Assembly: GCF_000527035.1 (NCBI RefSeq)
Contig: NZ_AZUK01000001.1
Location: forward strand, 2,848,501-2,912,500
Source: Tolumonas lignilytica
GTDB lineage: Bacteria; Pseudomonadota; Gammaproteobacteria; Enterobacterales; Aeromonadaceae
Direction of reading: 5' to 3'
DNA: 64,000 bases
Shown here: in pieces, positions 29,615-34,932 of the stretch
Position numbering within the stretch: the first letter of the stretch is position 1
Layout of the letters: each line of letters begins with the position of its first letter
Notes under the pieces: generated by a model
The model's input: the letters and a program-made list of their open reading frames with translations, nothing else
The model's database searches: none
Told to the model about the DNA's origin: nothing
Made by a program: the position numbers and the translations under genes

Positions 29615-31486
29615 ATGGATAATCATCATAATAGCCAAAGTATTCGGCAGCTCACGGTAGCAGCGATTGGTGTTGTATATGGCGATATCGGTACAAGCCC
29701 TCTTTATACTGTCCAAACCTGCTTTTCGTCTGAGTTGGGGTTTAAGCCGACCCCGGATGTCATTTTTGGTTTTTTGTCTTTAATTTTTTGGGCGCAAGTG
29801 CTTGTTGTTTCAGTTAAATATCTGGCTTTCGTATTAAGGGCCGATAATAAAGGGGAAGGTGGTATTTTAACGCTGATGTCGTTGGCAGGGCGCAATACCA
29901 GTTTTCGGACCACCACTGTTTTGCTGATTCTGGGGCTGATTGGTGGGGGGTTGTTTTATGGCGACAGTATTATTACACCCGCCATGTCTGTGCTTTCTGC
30001 CTTAGAAGGCGTACAGGTGATTGCACCTAATTTAAAATCATTCATTGTTCCTGTTTCATTAATCGTTTTATTTTTTCTTTTTCATATCCAAAAACATGGT
30101 ACCGCATCGGTTGGAAAATTTTTTGGGCCAATCATGATTGTGTGGTTTTTGGTATTAGCCATTCTGGGTGCAAAACAGATTTTAAATAATCCGTCTGTTC
30201 TTCAGGCGATACATCCCAAATGGGCCATTCATTTCTTTGTCACTTATAAAGCGGCCTCTTTTTTATCATTAGGCGCAGTTGTGTTGTCCATCACCGGAGG
30301 CGAAGCGTTGTATGCTGATATGGGGCATTTCGGCAAACGACCGATCCGACTGGCCTGGTTTTCTTTTGTGTCACCGGCACTTATTCTGAATTATTTTGGT
30401 CAGGGTGCCCTGATATTGTCTGACAAATCGACAATAGACAATCCATTCTATAAATTGGCACCCGAATGGGCTGTTGTTCCTTTAGTTATCCTAGCAACAC
30501 TGGCCACCATTATTGCTTCGCAAGCGGTCATCTCTGGGGCTTTTTCGATGACCCGTCAAGCGGTGCGGATGGGCTATTTTCCTAACATGACGATCATGCA
30601 TACCTCAAAATATGAAGCCGGGCAGATTTATATGCCGTTTGTGAACTGGATATTATTTTGGTGCATCCTGATCGTCGTTGTTTTATTCCGGGAATCAAGC
30701 AAACTCGCTTCCGCCTATGGTATTGCCGTGACAGGGACAATGGCGATTACGACCATTCTGGCGTGTTATGCAGCGATATATAATTGGGATTGGAATAAGA
30801 AACTGGTTCAATATATTGGTGCAGCACTGCTGATTATTGATATTCCCTTTTTCTCATCCAATCTGATTAAGGTGGTCGATGGAGGCTGGTTGCCATTAAG
30901 CGTTGGTATCTTAACCTTTACCGTCATGGCTATCTGGAAATGGGAGCGATTTCTTTTGCTTCGTCAGCTCAGCCGGATGAGTATGCCCTTGGATCAGTTC
31001 GTGAACCTTGTCGAGAAGAATGCGCCTCAAAAAGTGCCGGGAACCGCGGTTTATCTGTCGCGTACCCCGCAGGGAATTCCGCATGCATTGATACATAATC
31101 TCAATCACAACCATGTATTACATGAGCGTATTGTGTTGATGACGATCCGGACGCAAGACGTTCCGTATGTTGACTGGGATAAACACATTGAACTCACCGA
31201 ACTGGCCCCTAATATCTGGCGGCTATCGGCGACCTATGGATTCCATGAAACGCCGGATGTTGACGATCTGTTCCGTAATTCCGCTCGCATGGGGATGACG
31301 TTCAACCTGCAAACGACCACCTTCTTTTTATCCCGTGAAACGTTGCTGCCGACACAGCGGTCGATCTTTGCTGAGTGGCGGGCGAAACTATTTATATTGT
31401 TGAGCAAGAACTCGTTACGTACGAATGACTTCATTCATGTACCGGCAGATCGAGTGGTGGAAATGGGGATTCAGGTCAGCGTATAA
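29615..31486 (+). CDS. kup: Low-affinity potassium:proton symporter Kup
   Basis: KUP/HAK/KT-family transporter of 623 residues (E. coli 622) with about 12 membrane helices (residues 15-440) and a cytoplasmic C-terminal domain. Family motifs seen: VVYGDIGTSPLYT near the N-terminus, ADNKGEGGILTLMSLAGR, and ITGGEALYADMGHFGKRPI. It follows the KdpE-type regulator and is likely co-transcribed. A short stem-loop without a U-tract lies at 31538-31555. Confidence 0.95.
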   Translation: MDNHHNSQSIRQLTVAAIGVVYGDIGTSPLYTVQTCFSSELGFKPTPDVIFGFLSLIFWAQVLVVSVKYLAFVLRADNKGEGGILTLMSLAGRNTSFRTTTVLLILGLIGGGLFYGDSIITPAMSVLSALEGVQVIAPNLKSFIVPVSLIVLFFLFHIQKHGTASVGKFFGPIMIVWFLVLAILGAKQILNNPSVLQAIHPKWAIHFFVTYKAASFLSLGAVVLSITGGEALYADMGHFGKRPIRLAWFSFVSPALILNYFGQGALILSDKSTIDNPFYKLAPEWAVVPLVILATLATIIASQAVISGAFSMTRQAVRMGYFPNMTIMHTSKYEAGQIYMPFVNWILFWCILIVVVLFRESSKLASAYGIAVTGTMAITTILACYAAIYNWDWNKKLVQYIGAALLIIDIPFFSSNLIKVVDGGWLPLSVGILTFTVMAIWKWERFLLLRQLSRMSMPLDQFVNLVEKNAPQKVPGTAVYLSRTPQGIPHALIHNLNHNHVLHERIVLMTIRTQDVPYVDWDKHIELTELAPNIWRLSATYGFHETPDVDDLFRNSARMGMTFNLQTTTFFLSRETLLPTQRSIFAEWRAKLFILLSKNSLRTNDFIHVPADRVVEMGIQVSV

Positions 31487-31585
31487 CGTTGGTTGAGGCC
31501 TATTTTTCAGGCTTACGCTGTTTTCGTGACGCCCATGCAGACCTTTTTGGGTCTGTGTGAGCGGTGATATAAATATTTATACAAT

Positions 31586-31620
31586 CTGTAACTGTTATGT
31601 CATTAAATTTGTGGTAAATT
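31586..31620 (+). promoter_or_regulatory. Pho-box-like promoter of the ABC transporter operon
   Basis: CTGTAAC-TGTT-ATGTCAT (31586-31603) matches the PhoB 7-4-7 layout. TAAATT (31615-31620) lies 11 bp downstream, the spacing seen at E. coli pho promoters. It predicts transcription from about 31627. Confidence 0.55.
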
Positions 31621-31626
31621 CCGCGC

Positions 31627-31894
31627 AGTTTTTAAGTTGGAGATTTTAAATCTGTGGATAGTTCCAGTAGTCGATTATGCATCGGCCACACACTGGTAAG
31701 GTAACCATAGGTTCCACCTATCGCTACCTTGCCTGACGGCGGGTAGTTCTGAGTAATCAGTTAGCAAACTGAATCCTCATTCCTCCCTTGTTAACAGTAT
31801 TGCGTTATTGATGTCAGCGACTGCTGATTAACTGCGTGCGTATTTTACGGCGCGGATGATCTGTGTTTGCTGCAATTTTGTAATCAAGGTCATC
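31627..31894 (+). promoter_or_regulatory. Hairpin-rich 268-nt 5' leader, candidate riboswitch or attenuator
   Basis: The leader contains AGATTT/AAATCT (31641-31653), GTCGAT-TATGC-ATCGGC (31670-31686), and a two-tier hairpin: GGTAAGGTA with TACCTTGCC (31695-31703/31725-31733) enclosing ATAGGT-TCC-ACCTAT. Further on, TCAG at 31757-31760 can pair with CTGA (31749) or, as TCAGTT, with AACTGA (31767), so these two folds exclude each other. TCAGC-GACT-GCTGA follows at 31814-31827. A 19-codon frame (ATG 31677 to TGA 31734) without a clear ribosome site spans the main hairpin. It does not match the riboswitch consensus sequences I can recall. Confidence 0.5.
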
Positions 31895-33625
31895 ATGTTT
31901 GAGTTGTTTAATCCGCGTCATCGCGATCAGGAAATGCTGGACTCCGCATCCAACCGCTGGAGTTGGGTGCTGTTGCCATTAATTTTGGTGCTGTTGGTTT
32001 TACTCGCCTATGCTGCGATGCAGATGAGCCGACCGTTTGTCGTCGGCGAAGCGCTGGATATTTCGCTGGATCCGCTATATCTGCCTTATTATCTGCTGCG
32101 TACGATCTTGCGCATGTTTATGGCATTGGGCTGCTCGCTGATCTTCAGTTTTATCTTTGCGGCGATTGCCGCCAAATATCGGATCGCAGAGAAATTCATG
32201 ATCCCGATGCTGGATATTCTGCAGTCGGTACCGATCCTTGGGTTTCAGGCTATCGCCGTGGCCCCTTTTATTGCGTTATTCCCGGGCAATTTGATGGGTG
32301 TTGAATGTGCGGCCATTTTTGCGATTTTTACCTCACAAGCCTGGAACATGGCGTTCAGTCTGTATCAGTCATTTCGTACTATCCCGGCGGAATTAAATGA
32401 AGCCGCCAGCATCTTCCGGCTTTCCGGCTGGCAACGCTTCTGGCGTCTGGAGTTGCCGTTTGCGATCCCGGGATTGTTATGGAACATGATGATGTCCATG
32501 TCAGGAGGCTGGTTCTTTTTGGTCGCCGCCGAAGCTATTTCTGTGGCCGGGCAGGATATCAAATTACCCGGTATTGGCTCTTATATCGCTGTGGCCATCG
32601 AAGCCAGAAACGTGGGGGCGATTGCTTGGGCGATTGCGGCGATGCTGACAGGGATCTTGCTTTACGATCAGGTCTTTTTCCGGCCATTGCTGGCGTGGGC
32701 CGATCGCTTCCGCTTTGAGGAGTCACAAGGGGAAACCGCACAACGCTCCTGGCTACTGGACATGGTGCGCGGCAATGCACTCACCCATGCGTTCTCCAAG
32801 TTTTTCTGGACGCAACTACGTCGTGCGCTGAGCTGGTTTCCCCGTCGTTATGACGGCACTTCCGTCAAGGCGAAACCGGCCACCTATACACGGAACTGGC
32901 TGCGGATCTGGGATGTACTGTTGCTATCTGCTGCGGTCGCCGCTTTTGCAAAACTGACACTGTTCATCCAAAGTGATGTGGGGGGGTATGAGGCACTCCA
33001 TGTGGTCTGGCTGGGGGCGATCACCTTGTTCCGTGTGATGGTGCTGATTGGCATTGCCTCCTTAATCTGGGTGCCGATTGCGATCTGGATTGGCCTGAAC
33101 CCTCGTTATTCGCAGCGGGTGCAGGCGGTGGCGCAATTTCTGGCGGCGTTTCCGGTGAACCTGATGTTCCCGCTGGTGGTCTTTGCACTGGCATCCCTGA
33201 AATTAAATCCGAACATCTGGCTGAGCCCGTTGATGGTGTTTGGCACACAGTGGTACATCCTGTTTAACGTGGTTGCCGGGGCCTCGGCGATCCCAACCGA
33301 ATTGCGACTGGCGGCGGCCAATCTGGGCGTCACCGGCTGGCTGAAGTGGAAGCGGATCTATTTGCCTGCCATTTTCCCGGCTTATGTCACCGGGGCGATT
33401 ACCGCCAGTGGCGGTTCATGGAACGCCAGTATCGTGGCGGAGTACGTGACCTGGGGTAAAACCACCCTGATGGCCAACGGCTTGGGCAGTTATATCAAAC
33501 AGATGACCGATTTGGGGGATTTCCATCGTATCGCATTGGGGATCGGCGTCATGTGTTTGTTTGTTATGTTTCTGAACCGTTTTTTCTGGCGCAAATTATA
33601 TTTGTTGGCTGAAGGCAGTCGTTGA
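31895..33625 (+). CDS. ABC transporter permease, fused double NitT/TauT-type domains
   Basis: Inner-membrane protein of 576 residues made of two tandem binding-protein-dependent permease domains. Each has an EAA loop: LNEAASIFRLSGWQRFWRLELP near 170 and LRLAAANLGVTGWLKWKRIYLP near 480, joined by a cytoplasmic linker (about 270-340). ATG 31895 has AAGG upstream. The ATPase gene follows 11 bases after the stop. No substrate-binding protein is encoded nearby, as is usual for this fused subfamily. Substrate unknown; the Pho-box-like promoter hints at a link with phosphate limitation. Confidence 0.85.
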   Translation: MFELFNPRHRDQEMLDSASNRWSWVLLPLILVLLVLLAYAAMQMSRPFVVGEALDISLDPLYLPYYLLRTILRMFMALGCSLIFSFIFAAIAAKYRIAEKFMIPMLDILQSVPILGFQAIAVAPFIALFPGNLMGVECAAIFAIFTSQAWNMAFSLYQSFRTIPAELNEAASIFRLSGWQRFWRLELPFAIPGLLWNMMMSMSGGWFFLVAAEAISVAGQDIKLPGIGSYIAVAIEARNVGAIAWAIAAMLTGILLYDQVFFRPLLAWADRFRFEESQGETAQRSWLLDMVRGNALTHAFSKFFWTQLRRALSWFPRRYDGTSVKAKPATYTRNWLRIWDVLLLSAAVAAFAKLTLFIQSDVGGYEALHVVWLGAITLFRVMVLIGIASLIWVPIAIWIGLNPRYSQRVQAVAQFLAAFPVNLMFPLVVFALASLKLNPNIWLSPLMVFGTQWYILFNVVAGASAIPTELRLAAANLGVTGWLKWKRIYLPAIFPAYVTGAITASGGSWNASIVAEYVTWGKTTLMANGLGSYIKQMTDLGDFHRIALGIGVMCLFVMFLNRFFWRKLYLLAEGSR

Positions 33626-33636
33626 GGAGAGAACTC

Positions 33637-34932
33637 ATGAGCCAATCTGCATTAATTAATCTGAAAGGTGTTTCTAAATCTTTCCGCACGTCTGATGGAA
33701 CAGCCCGCAGTGTTTTGGATAATGTCAATTTCACGCTACAGGAAGGGGAAATTGTCGCCTTGCTGGGCAAATCGGGCTCAGGCAAATCAACGTTGTTGCG
33801 GATCATCGCCGGGCTGATTGCTGCCGATCAAGGGCAGGTCAATTACCGTGGCAATAACATTTTTGGCCCGGTCTCCGGTATTGCGATGGTCTTTCAGTCA
33901 TTTGCATTGTTTCCGTGGCTAACAGTACAGCAAAACGTCGAGTTGGGGCTGGAAGCACAGGGTGTACCTGCCGCAGAACGAGAAGTACGAGCCGATGCCG
34001 TATTGGAATTGATTGGTCTGGCGGGGTTCGGTGGCGCTTTGCCGCGTGAGCTGTCCGGCGGGATGCGTCAACGTGTCGGGATCGCGCGGGCGTTGGTCAC
34101 CAACCCTGACATTCTGCTGATGGATGAAGCCTTCTCTGCGTTGGATGTTCTGACCGGTGAAACCCTGCGCAATGACATGCTGGAGTTGTGGCAGGAAAAA
34201 CGCATTTCTACGAAAGGCATTCTGATCGTTTCGCACAACATCGAAGAAGCGGTGATGATGGCTGACCGCATCCTGATTTTATCGAGTGATCCTGGGCGAA
34301 TTCGCAGCGAAGTGAAAATTGATTTACCACAGCCAAGAAACGTTGATTCCCCTGAGGTCCGTGCGCTGATCGACGAGGTTTATGCCATGATGACCATGCG
34401 TCCAACTCAGATGGGTATTACGGGCCTCGTGACTGGTCTGAATATGGGCTATCGCCTGCCGCCAACCGACGTGGCGCGTATGGAAGGCTTGTTGGAGTTG
34501 CTCAATGATGCGCCGTTTAACGGTCATGCCGACTTGCCGCAATTGGCTGAAGAAGCCGAATTATCCGATGTGGAATTATTCCCGACCTACGAGGCATTGG
34601 GCTTATTAGGCTTGGCGCAGGTTGATAAAGGGGATATTACCCTCACGCGATTGGGCCGCCGTTATATTGAGGGTGAACAAGCGCTCCGGCAGGAAATTTT
34701 TGGACGTCAGTTACTGATGCAGGTGCCGCTCGCGGCGCAAATCAGAAAGAGTCTGGAGGCAGAATCCGGTGGCGCATTGCCAGAGAAGCAATTCCTGGAG
34801 CTGCTCGAAGAACATATGAAGCCGGACGAAGCGGAACGTGTACTCGGTGTTGCCATTGAGTGGGGACGCTACGGCGAAGTGTATGAGTATGACTTCCATA
34901 CCGGGAAGTTATTGCTCCCTAGTGCGGAATAA
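33637..34932 (+). CDS. ABC transporter ATPase with C-terminal AAA-associated domain
   Basis: NrtD/SsuB-like ATPase of 431 residues. Walker A GKSGSGKST, signature LSGGMRQRVGIARAL, Walker B ILLMDEAFSALD, H-loop VSHNIEEA. Residues about 285-431 form an extra AAA-associated C-terminal domain, a putative winged-helix-like module that may sense a ligand or regulate the ATPase. ATG 33637 has GAGGAG upstream. It forms an operon with the fused permease. Confidence 0.88.
   Translation: MSQSALINLKGVSKSFRTSDGTARSVLDNVNFTLQEGEIVALLGKSGSGKSTLLRIIAGLIAADQGQVNYRGNNIFGPVSGIAMVFQSFALFPWLTVQQNVELGLEAQGVPAAEREVRADAVLELIGLAGFGGALPRELSGGMRQRVGIARALVTNPDILLMDEAFSALDVLTGETLRNDMLELWQEKRISTKGILIVSHNIEEAVMMADRILILSSDPGRIRSEVKIDLPQPRNVDSPEVRALIDEVYAMMTMRPTQMGITGLVTGLNMGYRLPPTDVARMEGLLELLNDAPFNGHADLPQLAEEAELSDVELFPTYEALGLLGLAQVDKGDITLTRLGRRYIEGEQALRQEIFGRQLLMQVPLAAQIRKSLEAESGGALPEKQFLELLEEHMKPDEAERVLGVAIEWGRYGEVYEYDFHTGKLLLPSAE

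Follow-up and report, generated by a model that had tools for sequence, protein, structure and literature searches.

A probable leader-peptide attenuator ahead of a fused ABC permease gene in Tolumonas lignilytica, shared with magnesium-transport genes of related bacteria

The window, by which we mean the whole stretch of 64,000 nucleotides analysed here (Tolumonas lignilytica, contig NZ_AZUK01000001.1, positions 2,848,501 to 2,912,500 of the forward strand), contains the two genes of an orphan ABC transporter, a fused permease and an ATPase, preceded by a long leader. Upstream of the leader are genes for Kup and a KdpE-type regulator. The features of the leader and the two genes, numbered from the first base of the window, are as follows.

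31586–31603, + strand: Pho-like box CTGTAAC-TGTT-ATGTCAT, in which 11/14 positions agree with a pair of CTGTCAT half-sites set 11 bases apart
31615–31620, + strand: -10-like TAAATT, from the sequence
31639–31642, + strand: Shine-Dalgarno motif GGAG of the leader ORF, from the sequence and the strict Shine-Dalgarno-plus-ORF rule applied across elements
31654–31704, + strand: predicted leader ORF of 16 codons, GTG start, TAA stop (31702–31704), MDSSSSRLCIGHTLVR
31653–31690, + strand: P1 (31653–31656 with 31687–31690, and 31670–31675 with 31681–31686), overlapping the leader ORF, from covariation
31695–31703, + strand: arm a of P2, overlapping the 3' end of the leader ORF up to the second base of the stop codon, from covariation and sequence
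31707–31721, + strand: P2b, inner hairpin (31707–31712 with 31716–31721), from the 50-leader model alignment
31723–31733, + strand: arm b, which pairs with a (P2, 31725–31733) or with c (PA), from P2 and PA covariation
31738–31747, + strand: arm c, which pairs with b (PA) or with d (P3), from PA covariation with c aligned separately
31741–31787, + strand: P3 hairpin (c:d) with a U-poor tail in the window, from folding
31895–33625, + strand: fused permease gene with two BPD_transp_1 stretches (PF00528)
33637–34932, + strand: ABC ATPase gene (PF00005) with a C-terminal AAA-associated domain (AAA_assoc_C, PF09821)

The repeat at 31586–31603, which is Pho-like by its similarity to the Pho consensus, is separated by 11 bases from TAAATT, and a -10-like box lies at a comparable distance in many of 50 relatives (judged by eye). 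An earlier, sequence-only reading of this DNA had combined the two into a promoter; both parts are present, but a plain consensus scan of positions 31400–32000 returned no sigma-70 promoter-like site, TAAATT included. A transcription start near 31627 is plausible from the sequence. The resulting leader of 268 nt has a predicted folding energy of −83.4 kcal/mol, compared with −67.6 ± 4.8 kcal/mol for dinucleotide shuffles (z −3.3), and none of 200 shuffles folded as well. The two-tier hairpin described in the same reading is found at 31695–31703/31725–31733, enclosing 31707–31712/31716–31721, and the further motifs that it listed also exist: TCAGTT/AACTGA at 31757–31762/31767–31772, as well as CCAGT and ACTGG. 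At the downstream end of the leader (31856–31897), an in-frame ATG at 31856 would, if used, make the permease 13 residues longer, and in the predicted fold GATGATC can pair with GGTCATC across the ribosome site.

Of 480 loci encoding a relative of the fused permease, we collected the best 80. On inspection, a common element is located upstream of the permease in records of Tolumonas, Undibacterium, Iodobacter, Herminiimonas, Noviherbaspirillum and Massilia. Covariance models were built from 19 leaders (R1) and, subsequently, from 50 leaders (R2). R1 matched 38 of 81 sources (the window and the 80 loci) on the strand of the gene with E < 1e-4, including 19 that had not been used in building it; the other 43, some of which have little upstream DNA, gave no plus-strand match at E < 1e-3. 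In eight sources (L079, L082, L060, L074, L049–L051 and L039) the match stands farther upstream, approximately 1.5 kb from the permease, and each of the eight has a porin gene in the interval. A ninth porin locus, L058, has a weak element (24.1 bits with R2, E 0.0024).

Counted by genome, R1 found the element in 6 of 41 among the window's kin (the window's own included), 23 of 28 that had supplied the collected loci, 1 of 37 in the genus of G013, and 12 of 41 in the family of the Iodobacter genome G412. R2 found sites in 29 of 300 genomes in the order of G410. From this order scan 26 loci were examined; four loci of the scan (L089, L096, L098 and L127) repeat earlier ones, and two sites (G661 contig 1 and G594 contig 59) have no locus. 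Wide class scans with R1 and then R2, in which 11 candidates per genome were scored, returned 1 of 369 genomes, the window's own, which is weak evidence of absence. The window's genome has one element, and four other Tolumonas-type sites (L084–L087) also lie ahead of the permease. The Noviherbaspirillum autotrophicum genome (G417, source of L049–L051) has four elements (L110, L112, L114 and L115), of which three, equal in score, precede a porin gene and the fourth precedes the permease. In genome G526 (contig C308), an MgtA gene is flanked by a pair of elements (L170 and L192) that are equal in score, point towards each other and are separated by 3.7 kb; this may be an inverted duplication or an artefact of the assembly.

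A short ORF occupies the first half of the element. By a loose rule this ORF is present in 73 of 74 elements, that of L113 being a non-homologous frame; the strict rule, which demands a Shine-Dalgarno motif and a start and stop within narrow ranges, was satisfied by 61 of the 74, compared with 2.0% of 1480 shuffles. L173, which is the site already given by L121, and L192, the inverted copy next to L170, had been dropped from this set, and L189, probably a false match with no ORF and no known gene, was retained. The ratio of synonymous to expected single-base codon differences is 1.62 in frame and, out of frame, 0.72 and 0.95 (72 ORFs, L113 left out; the counts are pairwise and non-independent), and 1.59 versus 0.77 and 0.90 for 46 thinned ORFs. 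The two other frames of the 72 ORFs hold 15 and 82 stops, and the ORF frame remains open despite length differences between the elements. The weak-match elements L148, L149, L166 and L058 likewise contain the ORF. Across the elements, the ORF terminates within arm a or shortly upstream of it. We predict that the window leader, which had been described as untranslated, is one that carries a translated-type ORF (31654–31704), with its own Shine-Dalgarno motif and a coding signature.

The encoded peptides fall into two types, MDS[YSP]S[CS]RS... and MGTCSSDSC[CS][RQ]..., which differ in the position of the start codon: in the MGTCSSDSC type it is upstream of P1, in the window type the GTG start is inside the 5' arm of P1. 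Ser and Cys are abundant in the peptides, an Arg is nearly constant (R at one column in 63 of 73), and prolines are few. Residue 2 is D or E in 46 of 72 peptides, and an acidic residue occurs anywhere within the first eight in 62 of 72 (L113 left out of both counts). In L113, the homologous reading frame runs for three codons before a stop closes it. At this locus (L113:538–1176) the broken leader frame is followed by end-pieces of a Mg2+ P-type ATPase gene and then by mgtC, as if the element and the pump had decayed together.

The helices P1 and P2 are supported by covariation. In a MAFFT alignment of the 19 leaders (A2), which was not fitted to any structure, both sides changed in 14 of 25 pairs, a count reached by 6 of 500 shuffles; there were 32 cells with changes on both sides compared with 13.9 ± 3.0 in shuffles, and 79.1% of cells were paired versus 30–50% for slid partners. 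Further pair types were not above shuffles on this unfitted alignment (32 versus 30.5; 161/500). In the model-made alignment of 50 leaders (A3), which leans to the structure, was drawn from loci already matched and includes the 19 sequences that built R1, both sides changed in 21 of 25 pairs, with 84.8% of cells paired and 140 both-side-change cells compared with 49.7 ± 7.3. The covariation check on homologous leaders proposed in the sequence-only reading was thus positive, with compensatory changes in both the 19 and the 50 leaders.

When arm b was folded with the bases downstream of it, a rival hairpin, PA, was seen on inspection in 50 of 50 leaders. In the window it pairs GCTACCTTGCC (31723–31733) with GGCGGGTAGT (31738–31747). 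With arm c aligned separately, 91.7% of 533 PA cells are paired, compared with 84.6 ± 0.7 after shuffling (0/500), 49 cells have changes on both sides (15.2 ± 3.0 in shuffles), and 8 of 11 pairs vary on both sides. The covariation score of PA is 0.409, and every slid version scores lower (0.255 for the +3 slide). Because arm b is common to both, P2 and PA cannot coexist, and from comparison of the sequences the mutually exclusive helices a:b and b:c are both conserved by compensatory change, as in an attenuator. The leader is probably a regulatory RNA with competing folds. The earlier proposal of competing pairings survives in that exclusive helices covary in relatives, although a pair named at the time, CCAGT/ACTGG, is kept in only 6 of 50 leaders (the window, three Tolumonas-type and two Herminiimonas) and is for that reason not the shared switch, while PA, which is shared, had not been listed.

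The third helix, P3, is less distinctive. A P3 hairpin of −12 kcal/mol or lower is found in 46 of 50 leaders versus 76% of controls, which by itself is little above chance. When at least five U in the next eight bases are required as well, the count is 26 of 50 versus 21% of 200 controls, with the clearest terminator-like examples in L118–L120. The 24 leaders that miss the U-tract rule include the window, three other Tolumonas-type leaders, and the Massilia and porin types, and a terminator scan of 31400–32000 did not flag the P3 of the window. About half of the 50 leaders thus have a P3 that resembles an intrinsic terminator; in the window the resemblance is not clear.

In relatives, the same element lies ahead of magnesium-transport genes. 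Among 14 sites in the family of G412, nine (L118 and L120–L127) precede a Mg2+-type P-type ATPase gene, three (L113, L117 and L119) mgtC, and two (L102 and L128) the permease; in L088 of G013 the element is followed by a small ORF and then by mgtC. TIGR01524 (magnesium P-type ATPase) was the top NCBIfam match for all five tested ORFs, which are cut by the ends of the loci, and the whole genes adjoining nine MgtA-type elements exceed the cut-off of that family; with Pfam, three of three tested ORFs are MgtC. The 26 loci from the R2 order scan comprise 17 with MgtA downstream in the same orientation, one (L192) with MgtA in the opposite orientation, four with a porin, two with the permease, and two (L185 and L189) with none of the five query proteins. 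An extra ORF separates the element from MgtA in L178, L180, L187 and L188. Conversely, 12 of 30 MgtA-type loci have an upstream R2 match with E < 1e-3, three of these 12 matches being weak (L148, L149 and L166); no R2 match was found at the remaining MgtA loci, including those in Undibacterium and Massilia genomes that carry the element before the permease.

We considered two further arrangements. MgtA and the permease are not strict alternatives: of the 28 genomes with the element before a permease or porin gene (5 from the window's kin and 23 from the fetched loci), 17 lack an MgtA above the family cut-off and 11 have one. In the window's genome no MgtA above the family cut-off was found (best 185 versus 610.75 bits). 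Placement of MgtC or MgtA within the permease operon was likewise rejected, with MgtC in 1 of 80 loci (L039) and MgtA in none of the 80. The single case (L039:6063–6527) is an MgtC-like stretch of 33% identity behind the ATPase gene of a porin-permease-ATPase operon.

Some smaller observations concern the neighbourhoods of these genes. A small ORF of about 110–200 aa behind the element in L185, L187 and L188 resembles, by eye, the ORF that precedes mgtC in L088, and the same three loci have a Mn2+ riboswitch on the opposite strand. Two permease loci without the element also carry a Mn2+ riboswitch (RF00080) on the minus strand (L029:1250–1421 and L042:1251–1422). In L008, L025, L034 and L064 a short ORF, seen by eye, ends over the permease start (CATGTTTGA or GTGTTTAA), which suggests translational coupling.

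Regulation through the Pho-like box was rejected as something that the elements have in common, the signal in element-bearing leaders being weak. At least 10 of 14 matches were found in 6 of 43 permease or porin leaders (shuffles 5.7%) and in 3 of 29 leaders of mgtA or mgtC (shuffles 4.7%). Such repeats are enriched in the promoters of permease loci without the element (19 of 41 within L004–L080, at least 10/14, versus 8.9% in shuffles; stretches of 130 and 200 bases were used, the 41 include many close relatives, and L058 was counted despite its weak element). This hints at phosphate control of the same transporter in loci without the element.

Since the same device stands ahead of magnesium-pump genes in relatives, it is probably a gene switch for magnesium starvation, which suggests that the orphan ABC transporter of the window would serve Mg2+ supply. 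The link to Mg2+ is drawn from the association of genes, and the Kup and KdpE-like genes next to the window's leader count against it.

The predicted effect of a ribosome on the leader was examined by folding with the bases under the ribosome masked. With the stop codon in the A site, PA was obtained in 49 of 49 model folds (L113 left out). In the window, a ribosome on codons 1–9 gave P2, and one with its P site at codon 10 or beyond gave PA; switching on should accordingly require that the ribosome be held towards the end of the ORF. When no ribosome is present, PA is favoured by the nascent fold in 34 of 49 leaders, mostly outside the window's kin, and by the fold extended to arm d in 22 of 50; in those leaders the OFF state would have to rely on the order of folding.

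We consider it probable that the leader is a leader-peptide transcription attenuator of magnesium-stress operons. When arm a is free of ribosomes, P2 would form, leaving c available for P3, and transcription would stop, intrinsically where a U tract follows P3 and otherwise perhaps via Rho. A ribosome that is slow at the last codons or at the stop codon would cover a, so that b pairs with c in an antiterminator; P3 would then be blocked, and the transporter genes would be transcribed. Judging from the genes, low Mg2+ may be what delays or arrests the ribosome, and in the window the device would switch the ABC transporter.

The sequence-only reading had seen in the competing pairings the mark of a riboswitch or an attenuator. 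Its regulatory leader is supported by the covariation, and an attenuator fits better than a riboswitch, because a short ORF with a coding signature makes up the conserved 5' half of the element; a purely riboswitch reading was abandoned once this ORF had been recognised. It is unlikely, nevertheless worth weighing, that the element is a direct Mg2+ riboswitch of a third class, in which Mg2+ would stabilise P1 and P2 and so free c for P3, the ORF being secondary. P1 and P2 do covary, the downstream genes are Mg2+ genes, and with the GTG start of the window type inside the 5' arm of P1, folding of P1 could gate translation. However, the conserved 5' loop of P1 is coding sequence for DSxS[CS]R, with a synonymous signature in one frame only, and the start codon of the MGTCSSDSC type is upstream of P1.

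The abundance of Ser and Cys in the peptides and the R found at one column in most of them could also be the trace of a classical amino-acid attenuator, which would sense charged tRNA for Ser, Cys or Arg and control uptake genes; mgtP of Salmonella responds to proline-charged tRNA, according to PMC3641672. We regard such a mechanism as improbable, because the downstream genes that were identified encode transport proteins or MgtC rather than biosynthetic enzymes, and because stalling at the Ser and Arg codons of the window (residues 3–7) leaves arm a free. It would surprise us still more if the leader were inert, or served to stabilise the mRNA, with pairings that have no switching role: the modest excess of P3 over chance would suit this explanation, but two exclusive helices kept by compensatory change and an ORF with a coding signature speak against it.

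Leader-peptide control of Mg2+ genes is already known in enteric bacteria (mgtL and mgtM/P), and the attenuator proposed here for Burkholderiales-type genomes, Iodobacter and Tolumonas would work on the same principle through another peptide and another RNA. We speculate, with considerable reserve, that the elements form a non-enteric family of Mg2+-sensing leader peptides, driving mgtA, mgtC and a fused NitT/TauT-like importer of Mg2+ or a Mg2+ complex through one antiterminator; the DSxS[CS]R or GTCSSDSC peptide would then confer Mg2+ sensitivity on the ribosome as it nears the end of the ORF. If true, the ribosome has come to serve bacteria as a gauge of magnesium on more than one occasion, dozens of natural variants are available for working out the rule, and the orphan ABC transporter family (fused permease plus AAA_assoc_C ATPase) gains a testable substrate.

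The sequence-only reading had assigned the leader to no known class, which agrees with the Rfam covariance models: no family reached its gathering score anywhere in the window, nor on the element in 34 element-bearing loci (14 + 20), and the five weak matches in the window leader (31400–32000) have E values of 0.12 to 7.2, far below gathering scores. Neither the Mg2+-I riboswitch model (ykoK, M-box) nor the Mg2+-II (Mg_sensor) model matched in the window or in the 34 loci, and R1 and R2 found nothing in the mgtA region of E. coli K-12 (L116). A literature search for such a leader outside the enterics gave nothing relevant among the full-text matches listed, most subscription papers being out of its scope.

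A trp-type attenuator combines a leader ORF with a chain of 1:2, 2:3 and 3:4 helices. The present element has both in common with it, and differs in controlling uptake genes and in the extra hairpin P1 inside the ORF. Two classes of Mg2+ riboswitch are named in PMC7266159, where ykoK (M-box) is likewise associated with Mg2+ transporter genes; in contrast, the present element is about half the size and has an ORF. In the mgtCBR leader of Salmonella, mgtC is under an attenuator with short ORFs, and the tandem mgtM and mgtP, within a long leader, steer stem-loops (PMC3641672). The present element shares the short ORF, but it has only one, which is not proline-rich; it also occurs before mgtA and an ABC operon, and in other lineages.

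A close likeness may be sought in the mgtL leader of Salmonella and E. coli mgtA (the 'Mg2+-II' or Mg_sensor leader), in which a leader ORF also precedes a Mg2+ transporter gene, with mutually exclusive folds and premature termination. Here too a leader ORF, recognised by comparison, precedes MgtA, and the early acidic residues of the present peptides recall mgtL, where a stretch of acidic residues and prolines destabilises the ribosome at low Mg2+, although prolines are few: the peptide is Ser/Cys-rich instead of the EPDP type (PMC11282234). As described in PMC11552253 and PMC11282234, efficient translation of mgtL at high Mg2+ leads to repression, and inefficient translation at low Mg2+ to expression. 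An mgtL-like drop-off model, unless modified, does not fit the window, because a ribosome that is held early or lost leaves P2 in place. The present element differs from mgtL in its P3, which in about half of the leaders resembles a terminator and has a U tract, and in its ON state, which seems to need a ribosome held late rather than one that drops off early.
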